Positions 3,990 through 58,006 of a DNA stretch of 64,000 nt are shown in pieces. The stretch's first letter is position 1. The number at the start of each line of letters is the position of its first letter. The position numbers and the translations under genes are program-made. This DNA is from Comamonadaceae bacterium (GTDB taxonomy: Bacteria; Pseudomonadota; Gammaproteobacteria; Burkholderiales; Burkholderiaceae_C): the NCBI GenBank assembly GCA_013297875.1, contig JAAFIW010000002.1, positions 1 to 64,000 of the forward strand, given 5' to 3'. The notes beneath the pieces were generated by a model. It did no database searches. It saw only the letters and a program-made list of their open reading frames with translations, and was not told the DNA's origin.

Positions 3990-5042
3990 TTATCGAATCG
4001 CAGGCACCGCCCGCGCCGCCCGTACTGCCCCTTCGCCAACTGCCGCACCAAAGCGCTTGGCCAGTCGCTCGGCCACATTTTCGCGGCGGGTGTAGTCCAC
4101 CAACTCTTCGGCCTTGATGACTTCGCGGGCCACAAAGTCCAGGCTGCCCAGCTGGTCTGCCAAGCCCAGCTCCACGGCTTGCTGGCCGGTCCAGAACAGG
4201 CCGCTGAACAGTTCCGGGCTGTCTTTCAGGCGGTCGCCACGACCGGTTTTGACCACGTCGATGAATTGTTTGTGAATCTGATCCAGCATGGTTTGCGCAA
4301 AGGCACGCTGCGCTTCGGTCTGGGGGCTGAACGGGTCTAAAAAGCCTTTGTTGGCACCGGCCGTCATCAGGCGGCGCTCCACGCCCAGTTTGTCCATCAA
4401 GCCGGTGAAGCCAAAGCCGTCCATCAGCACGCCAATGCTGCCCACGATGCTGGCTTTGTTGACGTAAATCTTGTCGGTGGCCGCTGCGATGTAGTAGGCA
4501 GCTGAGGCGCACGACTCTTCCACCACCGCGTAAATGGGCTTGTTGTGTTTGGCCTTCAAGCGCTTGATTTCGTCGTTGATGATGCCGGCCTGCACCGGGC
4601 TGCCGCCCGGCGAATTGATCAGCAACACGATGCCCTGGGCGCTGGTGTCTTCAAATGCAGCCCGCATGGCCGCCACGATGCCTTCTGCGCTGGCGTCGGC
4701 ACCCGAGGCAATTTCGCCCTTGATTTCCACCACCGCCGTGTGCACGCCGGTTTTGTCGGTGCTGCTGGTGCTGCCCCGATGCGTGAGCGACCACACCACG
4801 AACACCGCAAACACCAGCCAGGCCAGCCGGGTGAACAGGCGCCAGCGGCGGGCGGTTTTCTGCTCGGCCAGGGTGGCAAACAGCAGCTTTTCCAGGGTGG
4901 CACTGGCCCATTGGCCGCTGGATGGATCGGTTTCTGAAGATTTATTCACTATGTTTTTTGTAGCTGCTTGAGCAGTATTTGTATGGGCTGGAGAGCTGTT
5001 TGGCTCTAAATCGGGGTTTTCGGGCAATTGGGGGTCAGACAT
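3990..5042 (-). CDS. sppA: Signal peptide peptidase SppA (S49 family)
   Basis: The 350-residue membrane-bound serine protease degrades cleaved signal peptides in the inner membrane. One transmembrane helix lies at about 71-86 (LAWLVFAVFVVWSL). The S49 domain follows, with LLINSPGGSPV, the nucleophile Ser180 in SCASAAYYIA and the likely general base Lys232 in AGANKGFL, giving the Ser/Lys dyad of the short bacterial SppA type. The cytoplasmic N-terminus is long and of odd composition because residues about 12-32 are encoded by a TAGCTGCTTGAGCA repeat read in antisense. A 233-bp MITE lies 38 bases upstream of the start. Confidence 0.9.
   Translation of the reverse strand: MSDPQLPENPDLEPNSSPAHTNTAQAATKNIVNKSSETDPSSGQWASATLEKLLFATLAEQKTARRWRLFTRLAWLVFAVFVVWSLTHRGSTSSTDKTGVHTAVVEIKGEIASGADASAEGIVAAMRAAFEDTSAQGIVLLINSPGGSPVQAGIINDEIKRLKAKHNKPIYAVVEESCASAAYYIAAATDKIYVNKASIVGSIGVLMDGFGFTGLMDKLGVERRLMTAGANKGFLDPFSPQTEAQRAFAQTMLDQIHKQFIDVVKTGRGDRLKDSPELFSGLFWTGQQAVELGLADQLGSLDFVAREVIKAEELVDYTRRENVAERLAKRFGAAVGEGAVRAARAVPAIR
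4949..5010 (+). repeat. TAGCTGCTTGAGCA-type short repeat inside sppA
   Basis: The stretch matches the family head (CTATG..TGTAGCTGCTTGAGCAG) and the tail TATGGGCTGG..GGCTCTAAA. It lies antisense within sppA and encodes about 20 residues of the cytoplasmic N-terminus (PAHTNTAQAATKNIV). In this antisense frame the element has no stop codon. Confidence 0.75.
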
Positions 5043-5080
5043 TGGGGGTTGGGCTAAAAAGCCACCGGTTGAAGGTTGAA

Positions 5081-5313
5081 CCTAAAAGCAGCAGTTGGAC
5101 GCGCCCAAGTGGGTCGTCATGGCGTGGGCTGGCAAGGCGTGACGACGACGCAGGCTCTTGCCTGCTAGGAGAAGCAACGCAGCCAGCGCACGCCAGGGCG
5201 GCTCAATTGGGCGCGTAGCGTTCTCACCTAGTGGGTAAGGTCGCGCAACGCTACAAGCGTTTGATTTCATTGGAAAAAGTTATCGGGGCTAGCGGTCAAC
5301 TGCTGCTTTTAGG
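5081..5313 (+). mobile_element. 233-bp MITE, copy 1
   Basis: The ends are perfect inverted repeats, CCTAAAAGCAGCAGTTG at 5081-5097 against its complement at the right end (5297-5313). TTGAA flanks both sides (5076-5080 and 5314-5318), an intact 5-bp target duplication. Two further copies of identical length lie at 14514-14746 and 47999-48231, all in the same orientation. A minus-strand frame of about 62 codons stays open in all three copies but has no recognisable domain. The right end overlaps the last codons of the Rieske gene. Confidence 0.85.
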
Positions 5314-5660
5314 TTGAAAGCAGTATGCCAGTGCACCACGCCAACTGCTTCGCTCAGGGTGATTTTGACGAGGCCGCCCCGGCACGGGCCGCCGCCACAT
5401 TCGCCGGTGGCCGGTTTGTAGGCTGCGCCGTGGGTGGCGCACAGCAGCCACTGGCCCGTGTCGTCAAAAAAACGGTTGGGCTGGTAGTCCATTTCCATGG
5501 CAATGTGGTTGCAGCGGTTCAGGTAGGCGTGCACCTCGCCTTTAAAGCGTATGGCAAAGGCGCGGCAGGTCTGGCCGCCGTAGACCACGTCAAATGGCAC
5601 GGCGATGCCGCCGTCTTGTAGGTCGGCGCTGCTGCACAGGGGGTGAACGTCATCAGTCAT
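5289..5660 (-). CDS. Rieske [2Fe-2S] ferredoxin-type protein
   Basis: The 123-residue protein has the Rieske ligands CNH (residues about 50-52) and CATHGA (about 74-79), spaced as in small stand-alone Rieske ferredoxins. There is no signal peptide, so it is probably a soluble electron carrier or regulatory subunit. It lies nine bases downstream of the phosphatase gene on the same strand and upstream of sppA. The last seven codons and the stop fall inside MITE copy 1, so the native C-terminus has been replaced. Confidence 0.85.
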   Translation of the reverse strand: MTDDVHPLCSSADLQDGGIAVPFDVVYGGQTCRAFAIRFKGEVHAYLNRCNHIAMEMDYQPNRFFDDTGQWLLCATHGAAYKPATGECGGGPCRGGLVKITLSEAVGVVHWHTAFNLKAAVDR

Positions 5661-6553: not shown

Positions 6554-7546
6554 ATGACATCTGCCAAGCGGCTATCGGTTCTTGGAAACATCGTTTGCGG
6601 CCTGGGCTTGAGCCTGGGTTTGCTGGCCGCGGCCAGCGCGCAAACCACGATGAAAATCAGCATTTCCACCGCGCAAACCTCGCACCAGGGTGTGGCGATT
6701 GACACCTTTGCCCGCGAGGTGGAAAAGCGCACGGCGGGGCGCTACAAGGTGCAGACCTTTTACAACGGCGCTTTAGGCGGCGAGCGCGAATCGATTGAGG
6801 CGGTGCAACTGGGCACGCAGGAGCTGGCGTTCAGTTCGTCCGGCCCGGTGCCCAACTTCGTGCCTGAAGCCAAAATTCTCGATGTGCCGTTTTTGTTTCG
6901 CGACAAAGCCCATGCCCGCGCCGTGCTCGATGGCCCGATTGGCCAGGAGCTACTCAACAAGTTTGACGCCAAGGGCTTCAAGGCACTGGCCTGGGCCGAA
7001 AACGGCTTTCGCCACATGACCAATAGCAAGCGCGAGGTCAAGGGGCCAGAGGATTTGAAGGGCCTGAAGATGCGCACGATGGAAAACCCGGTGCACATTG
7101 CCGCCTACAAAGGCTTTGGCATCATCACCACGCCCATGGCCTTTCCCGAGGTGTTCACGGCCTTGCAGCAGGGCACGGTTGATGGTCAGGAAAACCCGCT
7201 GTCGGTCATTATTTCCGCCAAGTTTGACCAGGTGCAAAAGCACATTTCGCTCACCGGCCATGTGTATTCACCCTGCATCTTCGTGATGAACAAAGCCACG
7301 TTTGACAAGCTGAGCGCAGCCGACAAGCAGGCTTTTGTGGATGCTGCCAAAGAAGGCACCAAGGCCAACCGCGCCAAGGTTGACGAAGACGACACCAAGG
7401 GCGTGGCCGACCTGCGCACCAAGGGCATGACGGTGGTGGAAAACGTTGACAAGTCCAAGTTTGTGGCGGCCCTTGCCACGGTGAATGCGCAGTTCGAAAA
7501 AGACTTTGGCAAAGCCAACCTGGACGCGATCCGCAACGTGCGCTAA
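6554..7546 (+). CDS. dctP: TRAP transporter substrate-binding protein
   Basis: The 330-residue DctP-family protein has a signal peptide (LGNIVCGLGLSLGLLAAASA) with likely cleavage before QTT. Typical DctP segments follow: GALGGERESIEAVQLGTQEL, the carboxylate-binding region around KMRTMENP, and TVDGQENPL. It captures an organic acid in the periplasm for the DctQM permease. The start at 6554 is preceded by GGAG at 6541-6544; the longer frame upstream lacks a leader. Neighbouring glycerate kinase and pyruvate kinase genes point to glycerate, hydroxypyruvate or a tartrate-like substrate, which is inference. Confidence 0.85.
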   Translation: MTSAKRLSVLGNIVCGLGLSLGLLAAASAQTTMKISISTAQTSHQGVAIDTFAREVEKRTAGRYKVQTFYNGALGGERESIEAVQLGTQELAFSSSGPVPNFVPEAKILDVPFLFRDKAHARAVLDGPIGQELLNKFDAKGFKALAWAENGFRHMTNSKREVKGPEDLKGLKMRTMENPVHIAAYKGFGIITTPMAFPEVFTALQQGTVDGQENPLSVIISAKFDQVQKHISLTGHVYSPCIFVMNKATFDKLSAADKQAFVDAAKEGTKANRAKVDEDDTKGVADLRTKGMTVVENVDKSKFVAALATVNAQFEKDFGKANLDAIRNVR

Positions 7547-8166: not shown

Positions 8167-9449
8167 CCGCCATCATGATTGGAACCATGGTCTTGTGCTT
8201 TGCACTGACCGTTTCGGTGGCCGTGTCCATCGGCCTGGCATCGATATTTGGCATTCAGGCGTCCAACGCCCACATGCTGATTTCGGTCAAGGAAATGTTC
8301 AACGCCATCAACAAGTTTCCGCTGGCTGCGATCCCGTTTTTCATTCTCGCGGGCAACCTGATGGAAACCGGCGGCATCTCGCGCCGCCTGGTGGAGTTTG
8401 CCAAAAGCATTGTGGGCGGCGTGCAAGGCGGCTTGCCCATGACCTGCGTGTTGACGTGCATGATTTTTGCAGCCGTCTCGGGCTCGTCGGTGGCCACCAC
8501 CTTTGCCATTGGCGCGATCCTGGTTCCGGCGCTCATCAAGCACGGCTACCCCACGGGTTATGCCGCTGCGCTGCAGGCCACCAGTGCCGAGCTGGGGGTG
8601 ATCATTCCGCCGTCGATTCCGATGATTTTGTATGGCGTGAGCGCCGAGGTGTCGATTGGCGAGTTGTTCATTGCCGGCTTCGGGCCGGGGCTGTTGATTG
8701 GCCTGGCGTTGATGGCCTTTGTGTATGTGTATTGCAAGATAAAGGGCTGGGGCAAGACCGACGGTGAGGGCCGCCTGAACTTTGGCAAAGCGACTCTGCA
8801 GGCCAGCTGGGCACTGCTGATGCCGGTGATCATTCTGGGTGGCATTTACGGCGGTGTGTTCACACCCACCGAGGCCTCGGCGGTGGCGGTGTTTTATGCG
8901 CTGGTGGTGGGCATGGTGATTTACCGCGAAATCAAGCTGGCTGACCTGTTTGTGATTTTGCGCAAGTCCGTGGTGTCGTCAGCGGTGATCATGTTCATCA
9001 TTGCGAATGCGGGCTTGTTTGCCTTCCTGATCACACGGGCCGGTGTGCCCGACGCGATTGGTCGCTACCTGCAAGAAGTGCTGCAAAGCCCGGCGATGTT
9101 TTTGCTGGGCGTGAACGCAGCGCTGTTCTTCATTGGCATGTTCATTGAAACCAGCGCCGCCATCATCGTGCTGGCCCCCATCCTGGCACCGGTGGCGATT
9201 CACTTTGGCATTGACCCGGTGCACTTTGGTTTGATCATGGTGGTCAACCTGGCGCTGGGCATGATCACGCCGCCATTTGGTGTGAACCTGTTTGCCGCCT
9301 GCACCGTGGCGCGCATTTCGCTGGACCGGATCATTCCGTACCTCATACCGTTTGTGTTGGTGATCCTGGCCTGCCTGATGGTCATCACCTATGTGCCTGC
9401 GGTGTCACTCACGCTGCGTGACCTGGTCTATGGTGGGGTAGTCAAGTGA
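8163..9449 (+). CDS. dctM: TRAP transporter large permease subunit
   Basis: The 428-residue, roughly twelve-helix DctM-family protein contains PFFILAGNLMETGGISRRLVE, PPSIPMILYGV and ITPPFGVNLF, all typical of the transport subunit. It sits in the inner membrane with DctQ. It overlaps dctQ upstream and the glycerate kinase gene downstream by four bases each, so the transporter and the first catabolic enzyme are probably one translational unit. Confidence 0.9.
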   Translation: MTAIMIGTMVLCFALTVSVAVSIGLASIFGIQASNAHMLISVKEMFNAINKFPLAAIPFFILAGNLMETGGISRRLVEFAKSIVGGVQGGLPMTCVLTCMIFAAVSGSSVATTFAIGAILVPALIKHGYPTGYAAALQATSAELGVIIPPSIPMILYGVSAEVSIGELFIAGFGPGLLIGLALMAFVYVYCKIKGWGKTDGEGRLNFGKATLQASWALLMPVIILGGIYGGVFTPTEASAVAVFYALVVGMVIYREIKLADLFVILRKSVVSSAVIMFIIANAGLFAFLITRAGVPDAIGRYLQEVLQSPAMFLLGVNAALFFIGMFIETSAAIIVLAPILAPVAIHFGIDPVHFGLIMVVNLALGMITPPFGVNLFAACTVARISLDRIIPYLIPFVLVILACLMVITYVPAVSLTLRDLVYGGVVK

Positions 9450-13066: not shown

Positions 13067-13231
13067 CTATAAGGACTTACGTTGATAACTCAATTCCGTC
13101 ATTCCCGCGCAGGCGGGAATCCACCTTTGAGAACCACAAAACCTGTTGGCCTCGCAGCCTTCGCGCCTGGATCCCCGCCTGCGCGGGGATGACAGCAAAG
13201 GGCGTTTTGTGCGTCTGCGTAAGTCCTATAG
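13067..13231. repeat. 165-bp nested palindromic (MITE-like) element
   Basis: The outer ends CTATAAGGACTTACG (13067-13081) and CGTAAGTCCTATAG (13218-13231) are inverted repeats differing by one base insertion. Inside lies a 26-bp inverted repeat (13098-13123 against 13168-13193, beginning GTCATTCCCGCGCAGG). Its arms are themselves palindromic, and its two differences are G-T compatible in RNA. GTCATTCCCGC-type repeats are widespread in proteobacteria. No gene is present. Confidence 0.7.
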
Positions 13232-14499: not shown

Positions 14500-14513
14500 G
14501 CTATTTTATTGAA
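14500..14513 (+). repeat. Left part of a short repeat split by MITE copy 2
   Basis: GCGCTATTTTATT is the head of the TAGCTGCTTGAGCA family. It resumes at 14747 on the other side of the MITE. The uninterrupted version is visible at 16471. Confidence 0.7.
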
Positions 14514-14746
14514 CCTAGAAACAGCAGTTGGACGCGCCCGAGTGGGCCGACATGGGGTGGGCTGGCAAGGCGCGACAACGACGCAGGCCCTTGCCTGCTA
14601 GGCGGAGCAACGCCGCTAGCGCACGCCAGGGCGGCTCAATTGGGTGCGTAGCGTTGTCACCCAGCTGGTGAAGTCGCTCAACGCTACAAGCGCTTGATTT
14701 CATTGGAAAAAGTTACCGGGACGAGCGGTCAACTGCTGCTTCTAGG
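14514..14746 (+). mobile_element. 233-bp MITE, copy 2
   Basis: CCTAGAAACAGCAGTTG at the left and its complement at the right (one mismatch) bound an element of exactly the same length as copies 1 and 3. The flanks are TTGAA (14509-14513) and TTGAT (14747-14751), a 5-bp target duplication with one change. It has inserted into a TAGCTGCTTGAGCA repeat. Confidence 0.85.
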
Positions 14747-14800
14747 TTGATAGCTGCTTGAGCGCTCTGGATTTGCACGTGAGTCTGTTTGGGTAAAAAA
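14747..14800 (+). repeat. Right part of a short repeat split by MITE copy 2
   Basis: TTGATAGCTGCTTGAGCGCTC continues into the tail GGATTTGCACGTGAG of the second subfamily of this repeat (tail with TGCACGT), which also occurs at 24361 and 45345. Confidence 0.7.
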
Positions 14801-16384: not shown

Positions 16385-16483
16385 CTCAAGCTGCACCCAA
16401 CATCACACAACGGCTCGCGCTTTTCACAGCTCACGGTGAGTGGCCAGGATGGACGCTTGACACGGCAAACGCTATTTTATTGA
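16385..16483 (+). pseudogene. 3' remnant of a second binding-protein gene
   Basis: In frame from 16385 the DNA reads LKLHPTSHNGSRFSQLTVSG and continues QDGRLTRQ to a stop at 16481. This closely matches the C-terminus of the ABC binding protein that ends at 14498 (LKLHPTSHNGSRFSELTVIG, then RDGRLTR). Only the last 32 codons survive. The same short repeat follows both copies, so the duplicated unit included it. Confidence 0.8.
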
Positions 16484-16531
16484 TATCTGCTTGAGCAGTA
16501 TTTACATGGGCTGACTGGCATTTTTATACTT
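16471..16531 (+). repeat. TAGCTGCTTGAGCA-type short repeat
   Basis: GCTATTTTATTGATATCTGC is followed by TTGAGCAGTATTTACATGGGC and a tail with GGCATTTTT. It overlaps the end of the binding-protein remnant and represents the empty site of MITE copy 2. Confidence 0.8.
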
Positions 16532-16553
16532 GAACGCCGCTCCAAGGCTCCAA

Positions 16554-32414: not shown

Positions 32415-32549
32415 GTGAAGCTGAAACCCGCCACCGCCAAATGGCTGGCCTACGCCGGGGCCACCGTGGCGCTGCTGGGCGTGTTTTTGCTCTACACGCA
32501 GCCTGACTTCATGGTGACGGTGGCGGAGCAGGTGTGGTCGTGTTTTTAG
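32415..32549 (+). CDS. Small membrane protein, 44 residues
   Basis: A GTG-started frame two bases after the MFS stop encodes 44 residues with one clear hydrophobic helix (WLAYAGATVALLGVFLLY) and charged ends. The tight spacing and intact helix suggest it is translated with the transporter, possibly as an accessory peptide. It is not matched to a family. Confidence 0.5.
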   Translation: MKLKPATAKWLAYAGATVALLGVFLLYTQPDFMVTVAEQVWSCF

Positions 32550-32550
32550 G

Positions 32551-32606
32551 TGTTTTGGGCCGCTAGCCCAGAGATTTATTGCTCAAGCAGCTATTTATTT
32601 CGTAGC
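32551..32606 (-). repeat. TAGCTGCTTGAGCA-type short repeat, reverse orientation
   Basis: Read on the minus strand, AAATAGCTGCTTGAGCAATA is followed by AATCTCTGGGCTAGCGGCCC. It starts just after the small membrane-protein gene. Confidence 0.75.
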
Positions 32607-32619
32607 AAGCTAAACGCAC

Positions 32620-32788: not shown

Positions 32789-32813
32789 GTGGCAACTGTG
32801 TGTGAATTGTTGG

Positions 32814-32869
32814 TGTTTCAGGCCCCCCGCCCAGGAAATGATTGCTCAAGCAGCTATTTAATTGGTAGC
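32814..32869 (-). repeat. TAGCTGCTTGAGCA-type short repeat, reverse orientation
   Basis: The minus strand reads AAATAGCTGCTTGAGCAATC then TTTCCTGGGCGGGGGGCC. Together with the copy at 32551 it brackets the YhcG-like remnant in the same orientation. Confidence 0.75.
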
Positions 32870-32957
32870 AACCAGGTTCTGTAGCCCAATCAAAGGGGCG
32901 TTCCCACTGGTACAAATCACACATTTTGGTTATGCTGGCGCAACCAAATTAATTGAC

Positions 32958-35942: not shown

Positions 35943-35990
35943 GAAAGGCTGGCCCTGGCAGCGCTGAAAAACCATATGAAGCCGCAATGA
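35943..35990 (+). pseudogene. Diverged remnant of an SDR gene 3' end
   Basis: GAAAGGCTGGCCCTGGCAGC and the following bases to the TGA at 35988 encode RLALAALKNHMKPQ, matching the C-terminus NLALAALKDDVKPR of the SDR that ends at 34473. Most differences are at third codon positions, as expected for a former coding copy. It marks the right edge of the HigBA/SecB insert. Confidence 0.65.
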
Positions 35991-36058
35991 TTGTGGTTTG
36001 GTTACGTCGGCTTCCCGTTCCAGATGTGGCGGTGCCTGTCATGCCAAACCACCCGCTC

Positions 36059-36652
36059 ATGAATACACCTCACCCCCCATTGCACGGCACCGCACCACCA
36101 TCGGCTTGGGTGCAGCGCTGGTCGCACCTGGTCCCCGCGGGAGGCACGGTGCTGGATGTGGCGGGTGGCTATGGGCGGCATGCGCGCTGGTTTTCTGAGC
36201 GAAATCACCCGGTAGCCCTTGTAGATATTGCTCAAGCAGCTATTGATTTTGTAGTGAATTTGAACCTGCCGCAGTGCGAAACACACGTGGCTGACATCGA
36301 ATCAGGCCCCTGGCCATTTGCGCAGCGGCAGTTTGCGGGTGTGGTGGTGACGAACTACCTGTGGCGGCCGCGGCTGGCCGACGTCGTGGCCTGCGTGGCA
36401 CCGGGCGGGGCGCTGATTTACGAAACCTTTGCAGCGGGCCAGGAGGCCGTGGGCAAGCCGTCGCGGCCTGATTTCTTGCTGCAGCCGGGCGAGTTGCTGG
36501 CGGTTTGCACAGGTTTGCGGGTGGTGGCGTATGAGCATGGTTTTCTTGACCATCCGCCACGCTTTGTACAGCGTGTGGCGGCGGTGCGTGAGCTTGCAGA
36601 GCGGGGTGAAAACACCCAGCCGCCGCGCCACCTGCTCAAGGCAATGCTCTAG
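36059..36652 (+). CDS. Class I SAM-dependent methyltransferase
   Basis: The 197-residue protein has the SAM motif I VLDVAGGYGRHARWF and the motif II acidic residue in VALVDIAQ, then VVTNYLWRP. It resembles the small tellurite-resistance/UbiE-like methyltransferases. The start at 36059 (MNTPHPPLHG) is chosen; two upstream ATGs are in frame but lack similarity. A TAGCTGCTTGAGCA repeat in antisense encodes the region DIAQAAIDFVV after motif II. Confidence 0.75.
   Translation: MNTPHPPLHGTAPPSAWVQRWSHLVPAGGTVLDVAGGYGRHARWFSERNHPVALVDIAQAAIDFVVNLNLPQCETHVADIESGPWPFAQRQFAGVVVTNYLWRPRLADVVACVAPGGALIYETFAAGQEAVGKPSRPDFLLQPGELLAVCTGLRVVAYEHGFLDHPPRFVQRVAAVRELAERGENTQPPRHLLKAML
36219..36254 (-). repeat. 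Short repeat inside the methyltransferase gene
   Basis: On the minus strand the bases read CAAAATCAATAGCTGCTTGA then GCAATATC. The gene reads it antisense as GATATTGCTCAAGCAGCTAT, encoding DIAQAAI, with no stop in that frame. Confidence 0.65.
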
Positions 36653-38759: not shown

Positions 38760-38795
38760 GATGGATCACAACGTCCACCCTCATGACTCGATTCA

Positions 38796-38860
38796 CTATC
38801 AAATCAATAGCTGCTTGAGCAATCTTTACAAGGGCTGATGGCACTTTTTGCCATAAAAAC
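38796..38860 (+). repeat. TAGCTGCTTGAGCA-type short repeat, well-preserved copy
   Basis: CTATCAAATCAATAGCTGCT is followed by TGAGCAATCTTTACAAGGGC and TGATGGCACTTTTTGCC. It is the best match to the copy inside cca and serves as the reference for the family. It lies between the convergent bamC and PLP-enzyme genes. Confidence 0.85.
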
Positions 38861-45400: not shown

Positions 45401-46177
45401 TCACATCAACGAAAAATCCCGCTCAAACCGCATCAAATGCTGCCCGCCGTCCACCAGCAGGGTGGTGCCTGTGATGGAGGCATTGTCGAGCGCAAACTTT
45501 ACCGTGGCCACCACATCAGCGGCGGTGGACGAGCGGCCCAGCGGCGAGAGTTTGTGCAATTGCTGGAATTTGTCGTCGCTGAGCATGTGGCTGGTCAGCG
45601 TGAGGCCTGGGGCCACGCCCACCACGCGCAGCTGGGGGGCCAGGGCCTGGGCCAGCAGCGTGTTGGCGGCTTCCAGCGCGGCTTTGCTTAAGGTGTAGCT
45701 GAAAAAGTCGGGGTTGGGGTTCCACAGCTTCTGGTCCAGCAGGTTGACGACGACGCCCTGCGACTGTCTTTCGCTCACATGACGGTGCAGCGCCTGCGCC
45801 AGCAGCACGGGCGCGCCGGTGTTGCTGCGCAGGTGCGTGTCCAGCGCGGCAAAGCTGAAGGTGTGGGGCGTGTCGTGTTCAAAGGTGCTGGCGTTGTTGA
45901 CCACGGCGTCAAGTTGGCCGAAGTGCTCAATCACACGCGGCACCAGTGCGCGCACTTGATCCTCGTCAGCCAAATCAGCATCAAAAGCGGCAGCAGCCCA
46001 TGAATTACTTGCTAGAGCAGCTACGGTTTCCATAGCATCAGATTCTGAATGGCGGTAATGCACGGCAACCTGCCAGCCGGCCTGGCCGAGTGCCAGCGCA
46101 ATCTCGCGGCCCAGGCGTTTGGCGGCACCGGTGACGAGCACGGTTCGGGGGCGGGTGTGTGGTTTGGTTTCTGACAT
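45401..46177 (-). CDS. folM: FolM-like pteridine reductase (SDR)
   Basis: The 258-residue SDR begins TVLVTGAAKRLGREIALALG with the arginine-containing cofactor loop HYRHSESD, has NNAST, and YTLSKAALEAAN with the catalytic Tyr/Lys. This is the pteridine reductase/dihydromonapterin reductase type. The start at 46177 is used because the 50 codons before it have no similarity. A TAGCTGCTTGAGCA repeat encodes residues 47-66 (VAALASNSWAAAAF). Being next to folB, it probably acts in pterin reduction. Confidence 0.8.
   Translation of the reverse strand: MSETKPHTRPRTVLVTGAAKRLGREIALALGQAGWQVAVHYRHSESDAMETVAALASNSWAAAAFDADLADEDQVRALVPRVIEHFGQLDAVVNNASTFEHDTPHTFSFAALDTHLRSNTGAPVLLAQALHRHVSERQSQGVVVNLLDQKLWNPNPDFFSYTLSKAALEAANTLLAQALAPQLRVVGVAPGLTLTSHMLSDDKFQQLHKLSPLGRSSTAADVVATVKFALDNASITGTTLLVDGGQHLMRFERDFSLM
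45982..46038 (-). repeat. TAGCTGCTTGAGCA-type repeat inside folM
   Basis: On the minus strand GCTATGGAAACCGTAGCTGC is followed by TCTAGCAAGTAATTCATGGG. The family TGA has become CTA, so the folM frame (GTA GCT GCT CTA GCA) stays open. The copy resembles the intergenic one at 6388. Confidence 0.75.
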
Positions 46178-46217
46178 GGCAATCGGTGGCGGGCCGGGCA
46201 TCGCAGACAATCGCTGC

Positions 46218-47351
46218 GTGACCCAAACGCCAACCAGTTTACCGACCCCCGCCATCACCCATGACCCGCTGCTGGCATTGATCCAGCGCGCCATCACGCA
46301 AGCCGGTGGCTGGCTGCCGTTTGACCGCTTCATGGCATTGGCGTTGTACGCGCCCGGCCTGGGCTACTACAGCCGCAGCGCAGGCCAGATTGGTGCCTTT
46401 CCCGCGGGCGGCAGCGACTTCACCACCGCGCCCGAAATCTCCCCGCTGTTTGGCCAGACCCTGGCGGTGCAAGTGGCCCAGGCGCTGCAAGCCACCGGCA
46501 CCGACGAGCTGTGGGAATTTGGGGCGGGCACCGGCGCGCTGGCGCTGCAGGTGTTGACCGCTTTGCAGGCCACGGGCCAGCCCGTGCGCCGTTACACCAT
46601 AGTTGACCTGTCTGGCAGCCTGCGCGGGCGCCAGCAAGAAACCTTGGCCGCTTTTGGCGACACCGTGCGCTGGGCGGGCGAACTGCCGGACGCCCTGCAA
46701 GGCGTGGTGCTGGGCAACGAGGTGCTGGACGCCATGCCCGTCAAGCTGGTGGCCCGGCTGCAGGGTGTGTGGCACGAGCGTGGTGTCGCGCTGCACGATG
46801 ACCAACTGAACTGGGCCGACGTGCCCACCGACTTGCGCCCGCCACTTGAAATTGACGGCCCACACAATTACGAAACCGAAATCCACCCCCAGGCCGAAGC
46901 CTTCATCGCCACCGTGGCGCAGCGCCTGCTAGCCAGCGAAAAGGGCGGTGCCGCCTTCTTCATCGACTACGGCTTCCCCGAAACCGAGTACTACCACCCT
47001 CAGCGCCACATGGGCACCTTGATCTGCCACCAGGCCCACCAGGCCGGCGGCAACCCCTTGGCCGAGGTGGGCCGCAAAGACATCACCGCGCATGTGAACT
47101 TCACCGGCCTGGCCGTGGCGGCGCAAGACGCAGGCTTGAGTTTGCTGGGCTACACCAGCCAGGCGCGGTTTTTATTGAACTGCGGTTTGCTATCAAAACC
47201 AGAGCTGCTTGAGCAATCAATCTCTGGGCGAACCCTGCTTTTGGTCAATGAACACGAGATGGGCGAGCTGTTCAAGGTGATGGGCTTTTGCACCGGCCAG
47301 CCGTTCGACGCGCTGGGTTTTGCGGCCGGCGACCGGTCGCACCGGCTCTGA
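46218..47351 (+). CDS. MidA/NDUFAF7-family SAM-dependent methyltransferase
   Basis: The 377-residue protein has GWLPFDRFMALALYAPGLGY, the SAM motif ELWEFGAGTGALALQVL, GNEVLDAMPVKL and FFIDYGFPETEYYHP, all signatures of the MidA/NDUFAF7 arginine methyltransferase family. The start is taken as GTG 46218; ATG 46176 would overlap the divergent folM start. A short repeat encodes about residues 324-341 near the C-terminal GELFKVM motif. Confidence 0.82.
   Translation: MTQTPTSLPTPAITHDPLLALIQRAITQAGGWLPFDRFMALALYAPGLGYYSRSAGQIGAFPAGGSDFTTAPEISPLFGQTLAVQVAQALQATGTDELWEFGAGTGALALQVLTALQATGQPVRRYTIVDLSGSLRGRQQETLAAFGDTVRWAGELPDALQGVVLGNEVLDAMPVKLVARLQGVWHERGVALHDDQLNWADVPTDLRPPLEIDGPHNYETEIHPQAEAFIATVAQRLLASEKGGAAFFIDYGFPETEYYHPQRHMGTLICHQAHQAGGNPLAEVGRKDITAHVNFTGLAVAAQDAGLSLLGYTSQARFLLNCGLLSKPELLEQSISGRTLLLVNEHEMGELFKVMGFCTGQPFDALGFAAGDRSHRL
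47188..47240 (+). repeat. TAGCTGCTTGAGCA-type repeat inside the MidA-like gene
   Basis: GCTATCAAAACCAGAGCTGC is followed by TTGAGCAATCAATCTCTGGG. The gene uses a different frame here (CTG CTT GAG CAA), encoding LSKPELLEQSISG, and in that frame the unchanged element has no stop. Confidence 0.75.
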
Positions 47352-47986: not shown

Positions 47987-47998
47987 GGTCGGCATCAT

Positions 47999-48231
47999 CC
48001 TAGAAACTGCAGTTGGACGCGCCCGAGTGGGCCGCCATGGGGTGGGCTGGCAAGGCGCGACAACGACGCAGGCTCTTGCCTGCTAGGCGGAGCAACGCGG
48101 CCAGCGCGCGCCAGGGTGGCTCAATCGGGTGCGTAGCGTTCTCAGCCAACTGGTGAACCCAATCAACGCTACAAGTGTTTGATTTCATTGGAAAAAGTTG
48201 CCGGGATAAGCGGTCAATTGCTGTTTCTAGG
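47999..48231 (+). mobile_element. 233-bp MITE, copy 3
   Basis: CCTAGAAACTGCAGTTG at the left and GCAATTGCTGTTTCTAGG-type complement at the right bound an element of exactly the same length and orientation as copies 1 and 2. The flanks ATCAT (47994-47998) and ATCAC (48232-48236) match in four of five bases. It sits between the zinc-ribbon gene start and the cca stop. Confidence 0.83.
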
Positions 48232-48232
48232 A

Positions 48233-49570
48233 TCACTGCAAAACTGCAGCCACTGCTGCAAGTCGTGCCTGGTAAATCACTTGACCAATCTCGGGGCCCT
48301 TGGCGCCGGCCTGGCTGGCTTGGGCTGCTGCTGATGAGGTCTCAACCGCCTGCGCCGCAGCTAGCGCACCCAGGAGCCGCTCGCGTTGCGGATACGCCGC
48401 GTCGTGCAAGCCCAGGCGTCCCCTTGCATCGCATTCGCAGGCCAGCAGGGCGTCGGCAAAACGCTGGGGTTTGCGGATGGCGTCGCAGCGGGTGAGCAGG
48501 CGCATCACGGCTTTGGCGTCCAGGCTGGCGCTGCGGTGGATGTTGCTGTGCTCGCGTGCCACTAGGTCGGCCAGGTCGCGGCAGTCGGTGGGCACGCGCA
48601 GGCGCTCGGCCACGTGGGCTGCCAGCTCGGCGCTGCGGGTTTCGTGGTCGATGTGGCGGCCCAGTTGGGGGTTGGCCTGCATTTTTTCGTGCCAGTGCCC
48701 GGGGGTGTAGGCCTCGCCCAGGTCTTGCGCAAAGGTCGAATCGTTGCCCAGATCGGTCGTGCCCTTGCCCAGGTCGTGCATCAGGCAGGCCCAGCGCACG
48801 GGCAGGGGTGCGTGCAACTGCGCGGCCATGTCCAGCACCATCAAGAGGTGTACGCCGGTGTCGATCTCGGGGTGGTGCTCGGCCCGCTGGGGCACGCCCC
48901 ACAGGCGGTTGACTTCGGGTAACAACCGCGCCAATGCACCGCCATCGCGCAGCACCGTGAACATGCGTGAGGGTTGGCGCTCCATCAGGCCGCGCGCAAG
49001 CTCTTGCCAAACCCGCTCGGGCACCAGCGCGTCGACCTCGCCGTCTTGCACCATCTGGCGCATCAGCAATTGAGTTTCAGGGGCTACAGAAAAGTCTTTG
49101 AAGCGCGCGGCAAACCGGGCCAGGCGCAGGATACGCACCGGGTCTTCGCGGAAGGCGTCGGTCACGTGGCGCAGCACCTTTTTTTGCAAATCGGCCTGGC
49201 CGTGCCAGGGGTCGATCAAATCGGCAGATTTCAAGGAAAAAGTGCCATCAGCCCATATGAAATCTGCTGAAACAGCTATTGAATTGATAGTAAGATCACG
49301 CCGGGCCAGGTCTTGTTCCAAGGTGACATCGGGTGCGCTATGCACCTCAAAACCGCGGTAGCCCCGCGCCGTTTTGCGCTCGGTACGGGCCAGGGCGTAT
49401 TCCTCTTGGGTCTGCGGGTGCAAAAACACCGGAAAGTCTTGCCCCACTTGCAGAAAGCCGCGCGCCACCATGTCGTCGGGCGTGGCGCCCACCACCACCC
49501 AGTCGCGGTCTTGTACCGGTAGACCGAGCAGGGCGTCGCGCACGGCACCGCCGACGAGAAAGATGTTCAT
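48233..49570 (-). CDS. cca: CCA tRNA nucleotidyltransferase with HD domain
   Basis: The 445-residue enzyme starts [20 protein letters not shown], with the metal-binding DRDW at 21-24, and adds or repairs the 3' CCA of tRNA. An HD domain ([23 protein letters not shown]) in the second half suits the gammaproteobacterial-type bifunctional form. The start at 49570 is chosen by this signature. Residues 94-114 ([17 protein letters not shown]) are an insertion encoded by a TAGCTGCTTGAGCA repeat between RRDLTIN and [11 protein letters not shown]. Confidence 0.9.
49230..49292 (-). repeat. TAGCTGCTTGAGCA-type repeat inside cca
   Basis: The minus strand reads CTATCAATTCAATAGCTGTT, TCAGCAGATTTCATATGGGC and TGATGGCACTTTTTCC. 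It matches the intergenic copy at 38796 over about 60 bases, but the TGA has become TCA so that the cca frame (GCT GTT TCA GCA) stays open. Confidence 0.88.
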
Positions 49571-50698: not shown

Positions 50699-51790
50699 AT
50701 GACCGCAGCTGTAACCACCTTGGCCGTTGACTGCATGGGCGGTGACCACGGCCCGCGCGTCACGCTGGTGGCTTGCCAAAGATTTCTCGAATCGCACCCT
50801 GACGCCGTCTTGCTCCTGGTGGGGCAACCGGAGCAGATGATGCAGGCGCTTCCCAAGTTTCAACATCCCCGCGCGCGGGTGGTGGCCGCCGGCGAGGTGG
50901 TGACCATGCAAGATTCGCTGGAAGTGGCACTGCGCCGTAAAAAAGACTCGTCGATGCGAGTGGCCATTGCGCAGGTCAAAGCCGGTGTGGCCGATGTGGC
51001 AGTGTCGGCGGGAAACACCGGGGCGCTGATGGCGATTGCCCGCTATCTGCTCAAAACCGTGGACGGTATTGACCGCCCCGCCATCGCCACCCAACTGCCC
51101 AACGCCGCGGGTGGAGCCACCACGGTGCTGGATTTGGGTGCCAATGTGGACTGCACGGCTGAACATTTGTTGCAGTTTGCGGTCATGGGCTCGGCTCTGG
51201 TGTCGGTACTTAAAAATGACAACAACCCGACGGTGGGCTTGCTGAACATTGGCGAAGAAGTCATCAAAGGCAACGAAATCATCAAAAAAGCAGGCGAATT
51301 GCTGCGATCAGCGGCTAAATCGGGCGATTTGAATTTTTATGGCAATGTTGAGGGCAACGATATTTTTAAAGGCACCACGGACATCGTGGTCTGTGACGGT
51401 TTTGTCGGCAATGTGGCACTCAAAACCAGCGAAGGCCTGGCCTCGATGATTGGTGGTTTTCTGAAAGCCGAGTTTTCTCGCAACTGGTTTACAAGACTTG
51501 CTGCCATCTTCGTTTATCCGGTGCTATCTGGCTTTAAAAAACGCATGGATCACCGACGTTACAACGGTGCGGCCTTGCTCGGGCTGCGTGGCCTGGTGTT
51601 TAAAAGCCATGGCTCGGCCGATGCTTTTGCGTTTGAACAGGCTTTGAACCGGGCGTATGATGCCGCCCGAAACCAATTGCTGGCCAAAGTTCAGGCGCGC
51701 ATTGCGCATGCGGCCCCGCTGTTGGCAGGCAGCCAGGCAGCCCAGCACACACCCAAAGCGTTAGAACAACCCTTGGCCGAACCAACCTGA
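50699..51790 (+). CDS. plsX: Phosphate acyltransferase PlsX
   Basis: The 363-residue protein begins [12 protein letters not shown] and contains [15 protein letters not shown] and [16 protein letters not shown], the PlsX signatures. It makes acyl-phosphate from acyl-ACP, the first step toward phosphatidic acid. The start at 50699 is chosen by similarity. Its stop and the fabH start share one base. Confidence 0.93.
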
Positions 51791-52791
51791 TGAGACGCTT
51801 TTCTCGTATCACCGGCACTGGCAGCTACCTGCCGCCGCGCCGCCTGTCCAATGCCGACTTGGCTGCTGAGTTGGCCACCAAAGGCGTGGAAACCTCGGAC
51901 GACTGGATCGTGGAGCGCACCGGCATTCGCGCCCGCCATTTCGCCGCGCCCGATGTCTGTGCCAGCGATTTGGGCTTCGAAGCCGCCAAAGCTGCCCTGC
52001 AAGCCGCAGGCCGCGCGCCGCAAGACATTGACCTGATCATTGTGGCCACGTCCACACCCGACATGGTGTTCCCGTCGACCGCCTGCATCCTGCAGCACAA
52101 GCTGGCGCAACTCAATGATGCGGCCAAGGGCATCGCCGGTTGCCCCGCGTTTGACGTGCAGGCCGTGTGCAGCGGTTTTGTGTATGCGCTCACCGTGGCC
52201 GACGCGATGATTCAAACCGGCGCAGCCAACCGGGCGCTGGTGATTGGCAGCGAGGTGTTCTCGCGCATTCTTGATTTCACCGACCGCACGACTTGCGTGC
52301 TGTTTGGCGACGGCGCAGGTGCCGTGGTGCTGGAAGCGTCGGACACGCCCGGCATTTTGGCCAGCGACCTGCATGCCGACGGCAAGCACGTGGGCATTTT
52401 GTGCGTGCCCGGCAATGTGTCGGGTGGGCGGGTGATCGGCTCTCCCCTGTTGACAATGGACGGCCAGGCCGTGTTCAAACTGGCCGTAGGCGTGCTGGAA
52501 GACGCCGCCCGAGCCACCTTGGCCAAAGCAGGCTTGAAAGACACCGACATTGACTGGCTGATTCCTCACCAGGCCAACATCCGCATCATGCAAAGCACAG
52601 CCAAAAAGCTGAAAGTGCCGCTTGAAAAGCTCATCGTCACCGTTGACCAACACGGCAACACCTCAGCCGCCTCGATTCCGCTGGCGTTGGATGTGTCGGT
52701 GAAAAGCGGCAAGATCAAACCCGGTGACACCCTGATGCTGGAAGGCGTCGGTGGTGGTTTCACCTGGGGTGCGGTGCTATTGAAGTTGTAG
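51790..52791 (+). CDS. fabH: 3-oxoacyl-ACP synthase III
   Basis: The 333-residue condensing enzyme starts fatty-acid synthesis by joining acetyl-CoA with malonyl-ACP. The catalytic triad is Cys127 (VQAVCSGF), His260 (IPHQANIRI) and Asn290 (DQHGNTSAA). The last codons and the TAG stop lie inside a short repeat, so the C-terminus reads VLLKL. Confidence 0.94.
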
Positions 52792-52831
52792 CTGCTCGAG
52801 CAGTGAATCTCTGGGCTGGTGCCCGATTTGA
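52776..52831 (+). repeat. TAGCTGCTTGAGCA-type repeat spanning the fabH stop
   Basis: GCTATTGAAGTTGTAGCTGC is followed by TCGAGCAGTGAATCTCTGGG. The TAG of the TAGCTGC core is the fabH stop codon. The rest lies in the fabH-fabD spacer. Confidence 0.75.
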
Positions 52832-52849
52832 CTTAAATTTCTCAGAAAA

Positions 52850-53788
52850 ATGACCGATTTTGCTTTTGTCTTCCCCGGCCAGGGCTCCCAGGCCGTTGGC
52901 ATGCTGGACGCCTGGGGCGACCACCCGGCTGTCGCCCAGACCCTGCGTGAAGCTTCTGACGCCCTGGGCGAAGACATCGCCAAACTGATCAACGAAGGCC
53001 CGAAAGAAGCCCTGGCGCTGACCACCAACACCCAGCCGGTGATGCTGGTGGCGGGTGTGGCGGCGTACCGGGCCTGGCTGGCCGAAGGTGGCGGCGTGCC
53101 GTCAGTGGTGGCCGGGCATTCGCTGGGCGAGTATTCGGCTTTGGTCGCTTCGGGGGTGTTGACTCTGGCGCAAGCCGCCCCGCTGGTGCGCCTGCGGGCC
53201 CAGGCCATGCAGGACGCGGTGCCCGTGGGCGTGGGCGCGATGGCCGCTGTACTAGGCCTGGATGCTGCGAAAGTTGTAGCGGTTTGTGCAGATTCCACAA
53301 GGGCTAGCGGTGAAATTGCTGAAGCTGTGAACTTCAATGACCCGCTGCAAACCGTGATTGCTGGCAGCAAGGCTGGCGTGGAAGCGGCCAGCGTGGCGCT
53401 GAAGGCAGCCGGTGCCAAGCGCTGCCTGCCGCTGCCGGTGTCGGCACCGTTTCACTCCAGTTTGATGAAGCCTGCTGCCGAAAAGCTGCGTGAAGCCCTG
53501 GCCAACACCAACCTGGCGGTGCCGCAGATTCCAGTCGTCAACAACATTGACGTGTCCGTGGAAACCGACGCCAACCGTATCCGCGACGCGCTATACCGCC
53601 AGGCCTTTGGTCCGGTGCGCTGGGTCGAATGCGTGCAGGCCATCAAGGCGCGCGGCCTGGTGCAGATTGTGGAATGCGGCCCCGGACGGGTGTTGGCGGG
53701 CATGTGCAAGCGCATTGACGCCGAGTTGACCGGCAGCGCGCTGTTTGACCCTGCCACACTGGCCGAGGTGAAAGGCTTGCTGGCATGA
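52850..53788 (+). CDS. fabD: Malonyl-CoA:ACP transacylase
   Basis: The 312-residue enzyme transfers malonyl groups to ACP. Ser91 lies in GHSLGEYSAL and His202 in APFHSSLMKP. Residues about 139-155 (AKVVAVCADSTRASG) appear derived from a diverged short repeat. It overlaps fabG by four bases. Confidence 0.93.
   Translation: MTDFAFVFPGQGSQAVGMLDAWGDHPAVAQTLREASDALGEDIAKLINEGPKEALALTTNTQPVMLVAGVAAYRAWLAEGGGVPSVVAGHSLGEYSALVASGVLTLAQAAPLVRLRAQAMQDAVPVGVGAMAAVLGLDAAKVVAVCADSTRASGEIAEAVNFNDPLQTVIAGSKAGVEAASVALKAAGAKRCLPLPVSAPFHSSLMKPAAEKLREALANTNLAVPQIPVVNNIDVSVETDANRIRDALYRQAFGPVRWVECVQAIKARGLVQIVECGPGRVLAGMCKRIDAELTGSALFDPATLAEVKGLLA
53263..53312 (+). repeat. Diverged short repeat inside fabD
   Basis: GTTGTAGCGGTTTGTGCAGA then TTCCACAAGGGCTAG resembles TAGCTGCTTGAGCAA..TACAAGGGCTG of the family. 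The TGA position reads TGT, keeping the frame open. The match is weaker than elsewhere. Confidence 0.45.
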
Positions 53789-54537
53789 GCGACGTCAAAA
53801 GCCTCCAGATTGCCCTGGTCACCGGTGCCACGCGCGGCATTGGCGCAGCCATTGCGCAGCAGCTGGCGCAGGCCGGGTTCCTGGTGATCGGCACCGCCAC
53901 CACGGCTGAGGGCGCTATCAAAATAGAAGCTGCTTCAGCAATGAATACATGGGCTGGTGGCCTAAAAGGCTTAAAACTGGATGTGACAGACGCTGCAGCG
54001 GTCGAAGCCGCCATTGACGGCATCGTCAAAGCCCACGGCGGGCTGCACGTGCTGGTCAACAACGCCGGCATCACCCGCGACACCCTGGCCATGCGCATGA
54101 AAGACGACGACTGGGATGCGGTGATGGACACCAACCTGAAGGCCGTCTTCAGAGCCAGCCGCGCGGTGATGCGCACCATGATGAAGCAGCGCTATGGCCG
54201 CATCATCAACATCACCAGCGTGGTGGGCGCAATGGGCAATCCTGGGCAGGCCAACTACGCGGCTGCCAAGGCAGGCGTGGCCGGCATGACCCGTGCGCTG
54301 GCCCGCGAGCTGGGCAGCCGGGGCATCACCGTCAACTGCGTGGCACCCGGTTTCATCGAAACCGACATGACAGCCAGCCTGCCCGAAGAACAGCAAAAAG
54401 CCCTGCTCACGCAGATTCCGCTGGGGCATCTGGGCAAACCGGCGGATGTGGCCCATGCCGTGGCCTGGTTGGCGTCGCCGCAAGCGGGCTATGTCACCGG
54501 GCAGGAAATTCATGTCAATGGTGGCATGTATACGTAA
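53785..54537 (+). CDS. fabG: 3-oxoacyl-ACP reductase
   Basis: The 250-residue SDR reduces 3-oxoacyl-ACP with NADPH. It has the cofactor motif TGATRGIG, NNAG at 92-95 and the triad Ser145, Tyr158, Lys162. Residues 44-62 (AIKIEAASAMNTWAGGLKG) are encoded by a TAGCTGCTTGAGCA repeat in the surface-exposed region after the third strand. Confidence 0.94.
   Translation: MSDVKSLQIALVTGATRGIGAAIAQQLAQAGFLVIGTATTAEGAIKIEAASAMNTWAGGLKGLKLDVTDAAAVEAAIDGIVKAHGGLHVLVNNAGITRDTLAMRMKDDDWDAVMDTNLKAVFRASRAVMRTMMKQRYGRIINITSVVGAMGNPGQANYAAAKAGVAGMTRALARELGSRGITVNCVAPGFIETDMTASLPEEQQKALLTQIPLGHLGKPADVAHAVAWLASPQAGYVTGQEIHVNGGMYT
53914..53970 (+). repeat. TAGCTGCTTGAGCA-type repeat inside fabG
   Basis: GCTATCAAAATAGAAGCTGC is followed by TTCAGCAATGAATACATGGG and CTGGTGGCCTAAAAGGC. 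The family TGA is TCA here, in the fabG frame GCT GCT TCA GCA. Confidence 0.85.
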
Positions 54538-57370: not shown

Positions 57371-58006
57371 ATGGAACCGTTGAACAACACTTCAGAGCAG
57401 CTGTCGGCACTGGCCGACGGACAGTTGAAAGGCGACGCATTTGTGCAAGCGGTCATGGCGGCCTGCGCTGACGAGGCCGCGTTGAAAACCTGGAACACCT
57501 ACCACCTGATTGGCGACGTGCTGCGTGCGCAGGATCTGGCTGGGCGCGGCAGCGAGCTGGCATTTGCGCAGGCCGTGCAAGCGCGGTTGAAAGACGAGCC
57601 CGTGCCGCTGGTTGCCGAGGCCGCAAACGCTACGCATTTGATAGCTGCCCGAGCGCTTCCAGTAAGCACTGGCAGCATGAATATCGTCAATTTCAACAAA
57701 CCGGCGGCCAATGATGCCCAGATGCGCTGGAAGCTGGTGGCTGGTGTTGCCAGCTTTGCAGCGGTGGCGGCCATTGGCTGGAATCTGGTTGTTGCCGGTT
57801 CCGGCGGCGGCGAGGCACCTACCCTGGCTCAGACCCCTGCCACTGCACCGGTGTTGCAGGCGGTTGGTGAATCGGGCCAATACATGATGCGTGACCCGAG
57901 GCTGGACGAGCTGCTGGCTGCGCATCGCCAGGCTGGCGGCACCTCTGCCTTGCAAATGCCTTCTGGTTTTTTGCGTAGCGCAACATTTGAACCGGCGGGT
58001 CGTTAA
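57371..58006 (+). CDS. rseA: Sigma-E anti-sigma factor RseA
   Basis: The 211-residue protein has the cytoplasmic RseA N-terminal domain (LSALADGQLKGDAFVQAVMA, TWNTYHLIGDVLR), one membrane helix at about 117-137 and a periplasmic tail. It binds RpoE until cleaved by the DegS/RseP-type cascade. Residues about 86-103 include a short-repeat-derived LIAARALPVS. Confidence 0.87.
   Translation: MEPLNNTSEQLSALADGQLKGDAFVQAVMAACADEAALKTWNTYHLIGDVLRAQDLAGRGSELAFAQAVQARLKDEPVPLVAEAANATHLIAARALPVSTGSMNIVNFNKPAANDAQMRWKLVAGVASFAAVAAIGWNLVVAGSGGGEAPTLAQTPATAPVLQAVGESGQYMMRDPRLDELLAAHRQAGGTSALQMPSGFLRSATFEPAGR
57628..57680 (+). repeat. Short repeat, TGCACGT subfamily, inside rseA
   Basis: GCTACGCATTTGATAGCTGC is followed by CCGAGCGCTTCCAGTAAGCA. 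The head TTGATAGCTGC and the GAGCGCT core are the same as at 14747. The TGA position is CGA, keeping the rseA frame open. Confidence 0.65.

Follow-up and report, generated by a model that had tools for sequence, protein, structure and literature searches.

The uptake sequences of the Neisseriaceae (DUS) and the Pasteurellaceae (USS) are 10–12 and about 30 bases long, respectively, and are spread evenly along the chromosome. Rickettsia palindromic elements (RPE) are insertions that lengthen the protein in which they lie. In a study of DUS, a TGA in one reading frame is described as limiting the placement of the sequence (PMC3630211, Frye 2013). The presence of RPE in frame inside housekeeping proteins is mentioned in a report dealing with GTAG/CGTC REP sequences, where the latter are presented as palindromic and intergenic, often at convergent gene ends and in some cases within genes (PMC3733652); the genus names Acidovorax, Polaromonas, Rhodoferax, Comamonas and Delftia do not appear in its text. 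A beta-proteobacterial repeat element (BRE) has been described in Rhodoferax, Polaromonas, Acidovorax and Delftia, with some copies within coding sequences, and is given as 75–91 bp long, with about 69% GC in Bordetella and at most 29 copies, partly in tandem (PMC3110155).

We analysed a window of 64,000 nucleotides, positions 1 to 64,000 of contig JAAFIW010000002.1 from a Comamonadaceae bacterium (assembly GCA_013297875.1), and found in it 19 profile matches to a DNA motif that spans about 65 bp and is made up of several blocks. In this genome, the motif consists of TGCTAY-N7-RTAGCTGCTTGAGCA, a variable stretch, TGGGCT, and T and A tracts. The cca gene and the motif copies relevant to this work are the following:

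48233–49570, minus strand: cca, multifunctional CCA addition/repair protein of 445 aa (NF008137, 584 bits, cut-off 451; Pfam PolyA_pol, PolyA_pol_RNAbd and HD).
49225–49291, minus strand: motif copy within cca, encoding 22 residues (47.8 bits; 45.6 bits with cca excluded).
49275–49291, minus strand: left core ACTAT-CAATTCA-ATAGC, codons T-I-N-S-I-A of cca (read from the sequence; codon pattern common to 46 of 89 family cca genes).
38795–38858, plus strand: intergenic copy between convergent genes by our own gene calls, the reference copy of the sequence-only reading (54.5 bits).
53913–53977, plus strand: copy within fabG, 53785–54537 (40.2 bits; FabG NF004197; two residues longer than 3ftp at the motif).
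4947–5014, plus strand: copy antisense to, and close to the N-terminal end of, an SppA-like gene, 3990–5042 on the minus strand (47.8 bits; TIGR00706 just under cut-off; classed as terminal, not internal).
47188–47254, plus strand: copy within an ORF of unnamed family, 46119–47351 (36.2 bits; no NCBIfam match).
57629–57683, plus strand: copy within an ORF of unnamed family, 57371–58006 (27.1 bits; no NCBIfam match).
53270–53319, plus strand: weak copy within fabD, 52850–53788 (17.5 bits, E 0.0011; TIGR00128).
36192–36255, minus strand: strong copy in a low-scoring ORF, 35987–36652 (52.5 bits; ORF without family match).
32540–32607, minus strand: copy, mostly intergenic (50.6 bits).
32808–32870, minus strand: copy, mostly intergenic (45.7 bits).
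16470–16537, plus strand: intergenic copy (41.2 bits).
52775–52839, plus strand: copy over the 3′ end of ORF 51790–52791 (47.3 bits).

Two other repeats were recorded in the same DNA. A 246-nt repeat is present in three copies 82–89% alike (5076–5321, 14509–14754 and 47994–48239), the last of which ends just past the 3′ end of cca, and an inverted repeat at 13098–13193, with arms GTCATTCCCGCGCAGGCGGGAATCCA / TGGATCCCCGCCTGCGCGGGGATGAC, is a GC-rich element of another kind.

The profile of the copies in a 464-kb sample, about 10% of the genome, yielded the consensus TGCTATTAAATTAATAGCTGCTTGAGCAGTATTTACATGGGCTGGAGGCCGATTTGGCTTAAAA, with information peaks at GCTA, TAGCTGC, GAGCA and GGGC, lower values in the later T and A tracts, and variable stretches in between. 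Information is distributed over about 65 positions in several blocks, and not in a short core of 10–12 bases of the type expected for DUS/USS. The sample contained 127 profile matches (about 274 per Mb), and its most over-represented 12-mer was TAGCTGCTTGAG (56 observed vs 0.04 expected); the motif was not the top k-mer in 100-kb samples of genomes G318, G237 and G010. In the G237 sample (L275–L279), the 12-mer CTGAGCTGCCTA was present 36 times in 100 kb and looks like a CRISPR array repeat. Exact CTAYN7ATAGCTGC cores numbered 496 over the whole genome under study, and the backward pattern used as control gave none. Such cores were present in 65 of 80 family genomes, with values ranging from 0 to 496 per genome. 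When 150 genomes of the order were compared, including four of the family, this genome had 496 cores and those outside the family never more than 6, beside up to 17 matches to the control pattern. The consensus differs among genomes, being GCTGCTTGAGCA in this one, GCTGCTCGCGC in Rhodoferax bucti (G407) and G023, GCTGCCAGCGC in G237 and GCTGCTCACGC in G318. Many members of a single Burkholderiales family (Comamonadaceae-type) carry the motif in their genomes, in dialects that differ between genera and in numbers of up to about a thousand. In the open-access literature, to which most subscription journals do not belong, we found no description of this motif and no report of the use of uptake sequences by this family.

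The copy in cca had been taken, from the sequence alone, for an intergenic element that became a loop of the protein. The resemblance on which this proposal was based is real: plus-strand positions 49237–49291 are complementary to 38795–38849 (84% over 55 nt), and a profile of the same genome built without cca detected the copy at 49291–49228 with 45.6 bits and an E value of 1.7e-12 in the 464-kb sample. The bounds proposed at that stage (49230–49292) are close to those of the profile (49225–49291). It is also correct that repeat-type DNA encodes part of Cca. By contrast, the idea of an inserted element turned into a loop was not supported: at the left half of the motif, the conserved TIN-A-I/M-A codons are still in place, in recoded form. 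Since the match starts at the conserved TIN codons, native residues are covered as well as the extra loop, and the motif recodes TIN-[A/S]-I-A plus much of the loop that follows. In an AlphaFold2 model of Cca (mean pLDDT 90.5), whose nearest folds were tRNA nucleotidyltransferases, the blocks across residues 101–120 had values of 80 and 76. In the Cca protein of R. bucti, a second motif copy was observed near the C-terminus (L257:11889–11946), where it encodes VATDSIAARAIAAGATGPK.

The sequence-only reading had also assigned only a few residues at this place to typical enzymes. This agrees with the segment from LARRD to DP, which has 36 residues in our Cca vs 24 or 30 in the 74 loci that could be parsed among the 75 tried (L045–L119), but within the family long loops occur without the motif as well. 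Loop length was 28–41 residues in motif-bearing cca genes and 24–46 in the others, and is not motif-specific. Conservation of the loop outside the repeat-bearing lineage, which had been named as the observation that would speak against the element, was found in part: 36-residue loops are present in 10 of 42 family genomes lacking the ATA codon, among them G068, G180 and G382 with 0 cores. As loops above 30 residues were absent from the 74 parsed loci, the link between the long loop and the family remains.

Across the family, the TIN-A/S-I-A codons of cca fall into two classes, either ACT ATY AAY KCN ATA GCN or GC-rich. In the 89 cca genes readable among 94 family genomes, ACT and ATA were found together in 46, ATA alone in 1 and ACT alone in none; in the rest of the same genes, ATA represents 4 of 162 Ile codons and ACT 20 of 585 Thr codons. 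The 74 parsed loci, chiefly from other families, contained ATA in no case and ACT in one. The Ser/Ala codon in the spacer is variable (TCA, TCC, GCG, GCA, TCG, GCC), whereas the stem codons hardly vary, and Ser occupies the fourth residue in 33 of 47 motif cca genes vs 3 of 42 others (p 4e-10, relatedness ignored). The median number of exact cores per Mb was 13.3 in ATA-class genomes (n = 45) and 0.24 in the others (n = 33; p 1.6e-8), and at least one core per Mb was present in 42/45 and 10/33 of them, respectively; in these comparisons, the cca site itself contributes one core to some counts and relatedness is still included, with well-supported branches giving only three independent pairs, which are undecisive. 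Genomes G078, G197 and G368 contain 74–155 cores and a cca gene without the motif, so that repeat load alone is not decisive. Core numbers in G402 and G281, of genus g107, are lower than in their sister genomes and their codons are GC-type or mixed, but the 36-residue loop is the same, as if the DNA motif had decayed while the peptide was retained.

Nor is cca the clearest case of repeat DNA within a protein, as had been claimed; the 464-kb sample contains 36 copies internal to genes, of which that in cca is one, and methylmalonyl-CoA mutase and gpsA are clearer. According to our own gene finder, copies well inside genes amounted to 36 of 127 in this genome and 26 of 70 in R. bucti, and in smaller samples to 6/29 (G237), 8/53 (G023, some places counted on both strands), 2/32 (G318) and 0/14 (G010). 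Because coding DNA makes up 83% of the sample from this genome, the copies are still enriched between genes. Besides cca, 27 ORFs overlapping a copy were scanned and 24 matched an NCBIfam family, not all of them over the curated cut-off. The hosts include leuS, truB, purD, gpsA, maf, fabG, dnaG, pepN, rlmD, methylmalonyl-CoA mutase, nadD, proA and others, with some copies weak (dnaG, 28.7 bits; fabD, 17.5 bits) or near the gene end (SppA). As is characteristic of DUS/USS, copies sit within core genes without disrupting the protein, and in mutase and GpsA they are overlaid on native residues. In its sense frame the motif contains a TGA, which none of the 13 sense coding copies that could be read has; it was present in 12 of 18 antisense coding copies and in 62 of 85 other copies.

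Comparison with the best solved homologue, with extra residues at the motif counted by hand in printed alignments of nine hosts, gave 8 for Cca, 4 for TruB, 4 for PurD, 2 for LeuS, 7 for PepN, 11 for RlmD, 1 for mutase, 2 for FabG and 5 for GpsA. In all nine hosts the local gain was therefore 1–11 residues vs the 16–22 encoded by the motif. A clean whole-element insertion was rejected as a general account, the gains being too small and native residues lying under the motif. At the motif, the mutase of this genome reads KRDSAQVSIAQAAITSIANGTTKGNLL vs KRDSAQVQQALDALTSAAESGQGNLL in G031, and 17 of 21 relatives are shorter by one residue; in G023 and G009, from two other genera, GCAGCTAT-N7-ATAGC occupies the same codons. 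The mutases of G027 (L331) and G005 (L340) are 7 and 12 residues longer through insertions just after the motif position, indicating that the spot tolerates real length changes too. GpsA reads LLAHEIAAQAAPELIVGVLSG in this genome vs LLAHEIRAQVAPQLRAGVLSG in G290, with a net length change of −4 to +9 over 27 relatives, 7 of which show none. Both comparisons indicate that motif DNA overlies native residues already resembling its encoded peptide. The pepN motif is present in this genome and, judged by eye from the peptide, in a version in G027, and that of rlmD in this genome and in R. bucti. Altogether, the motif sits between genes and in housekeeping genes, on either strand, with small length changes.

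The spacing of copies was evaluated against a gene-structure null. In C32:1–204000 it was more even than expected by chance (CV 0.744 vs 1.056, 3 of 2000 as low), as it was in one R. bucti stretch (CV 0.598 vs 0.992, 0 of 2000 as low); in the other R. bucti stretch the difference was not significant (CV 0.805 vs 0.962, 14% as low). No phage or transposase family was found among 10 proteins scanned in the two largest motif-free gaps, where the scan gave an operon for RND efflux and a locus for type IV pilus chemotaxis, and the interpretation of these gaps as foreign islands was discarded.

Protein-compatible sites with little length change, copy number, shared genus dialects and fairly even spacing together point to a sequence that is read by the cell in its DNA. 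We propose, with middling confidence, that the motif is a signature that arose in place through substitutions and small indels under a DNA-level pressure, the likeliest being a DUS/USS-like uptake bias. Such a pressure would favour the DNA sequence itself, and coding copies would arise in place by the same small changes. Sequence-biased DNA uptake followed by recombination would probably favour the motif at any place where the protein tolerates it, and might spread copies evenly and shift them jointly as a dialect. In its favour are also the pairing of ACT and ATA codons in cca, the best fit of 5 of 5 cca copies to the model of their own genome, the over-represented 12-mer and the missing TGA in sense coding copies. 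Some data do not fit easily: the motif is much longer than the 10–12-base DUS and less uniform, and partial insertion may have contributed to the gains of 7–11 residues in PepN and RlmD and to the long Cca loop. The failure of G010 in the dialect comparison and the early narrow miss of G237, the R. bucti stretch with no significant evenness, the three 100-kb samples with another top k-mer and the relatedness still contained in the comparison of repeat load with cca class also weigh against it. A ComEA-like regular expression had no match in the sampled stretches, which cover parts of genomes only, and was uninformative.

The main competing explanation, which we regard as possible but clearly less probable, is that the motif is recognised by a chromosomal DNA-binding protein (for nucleoid organisation, as a repair or recombination signal, or as the target of a global regulator) and is selected directly, copy by copy, in place and also inside genes, with no role of uptake. 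The motif has GCTAY and RTAGC as inverted half-sites separated by 7 bp. Covariation of the variable closing pair was unconvincing, since 33, 385 and 320 of 500 shuffles were equally high in three genomes, inner spacer pairs showed pairing no higher than shuffled sequences, and no Rfam family reached the gathering score within the 64 kb; a selected RNA hairpin was rejected on these grounds. A closing pair without convincing covariation and an unpaired spacer make a protein that reads duplex DNA likelier than such a hairpin, and the two half-sites GCTAY-N7-RTAGC are what would be expected of its target. A binding site would also explain in-place evolution and even spacing, but it requires strong selection on each of about a thousand copies and offers no ready reason for genus dialects common to coding and non-coding copies.

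A small mobile repeat of the REP, MITE or Rickettsia-palindromic-element type, inserted in genes and later trimmed, appears unlikely. In its favour, the density of copies between genes is highest where these converge (17 in 10.7 kb, vs 36 in 49.5 kb of tandem and 8 in 12.6 kb of divergent regions, in a set of 114 matches), and the length gains of 11 residues in RlmD and 7 in PepN are real. Furthermore, the only match in this genome to a Y1 (RAYT-like) transposase, at L221:7222–7926 (C42), has one motif copy adjoining its 3′ end and another about 0.65 kb upstream (7168–7211 and 8576–8616), although a copy next to a given gene is no rarity when there is one every few kb. Against mobility, a gain of at least 16 residues at the motif was seen in none of the nine hosts, and native residues are overlaid in mutase and GpsA. 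The transposase family is present in 67 of 78 genomes, many of them coreless, and had no match in 7 genomes with at least 15 cores; mobilisation by RAYT was discarded, as no association of cores with this family was observed.

Gene conversion among dispersed copies, which would keep the coding copies like the others, is very unlikely, even if cca copies do follow the dialect of their own genome. With models of five genomes, G010 being left out and cca being excluded from the two models that contained it, the own-dialect model scored best for 5 of 5 cca copies, G237 by 41.2 vs 39.5. In an earlier test this was so for 4 of 6, with a narrow loss for G237, when cca was still part of the R. bucti model, and, for G010, 19.8 with its own model, which is short and based on 14 matches, vs 39.6 with that of G237. 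Conversion leaves new sites with little length change unexplained, and native codons probably differ from the motif too much to permit ordinary homologous recombination.

Still less probable is that cca was the source and a piece of it spread across the genome. Motif codons occur in 47 of 89 family cca genes, some in genomes with few cores, but each cca copy is most like the repeats of its own genome, and other genes have similar peptides, also encoded by the motif, on top of native sequences that are unrelated. A single gain of the motif in cca was rejected, given that the single-gene tree requires 24 changes, vs 29.9 after shuffling, where 5 of 500 trials gave a value as low; the tree is poorly resolved, and its starred branches force only 3. 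Chance similarity, for which no favourable point was found, has a negligible probability in view of the E value of 1.7e-12 with cca left out and of the occurrence of these codons across the family (46 of 89 genomes).

We more tentatively suggest that the family may own a DNA-uptake signature, as a third bacterial group beside the Neisseriaceae and Pasteurellaceae. This signature would be long, multi-block and dialect-forming, and would rewrite short segments of housekeeping proteins, including the catalytic half of Cca, in many genera. If this is correct, a large environmental family may use a sequence tag to distinguish its own DNA from that of others. The tag would act as a measurable force on protein evolution, being associated with codons that are rare elsewhere and with the replacement of Ala by Ser in a motif universal to the enzyme, and the rewriting of proteomes by uptake bias could be tested across genera differing in dialect and load. 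If the uptake interpretation fails, a thousand-copy site favoured even within essential genes still needs an explanation.

With regard to described systems, the motif differs from BRE, which by its description is GC-rich, partly in tandem and of few copies, in being rich in AT, scattered and present in much higher numbers. It shares with REP its palindromic character, its intergenic and often convergent location and its occasional presence within genes, but REP are 20–40 bp long, with GTAG or CGTC at one end, and here no association with the transposase family was observed. As in RPE, copies lie in frame inside housekeeping proteins, but the gain is 1–11 residues vs 16–22 encoded, in 9 of 9 hosts. 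Compared with the published account of DUS and USS (PMC3630211), the motif is alike in its very high copy number, genus dialects and permissive sites in core genes, and also, relative to DUS, in the limit set by TGA; it is unlike them in its length of about 65 bp and its several blocks, and its role in uptake is putative. Among the known kinds of repeats, uptake sequences thus appear to be the best fit, with a chromosomal binding site as the main rival.
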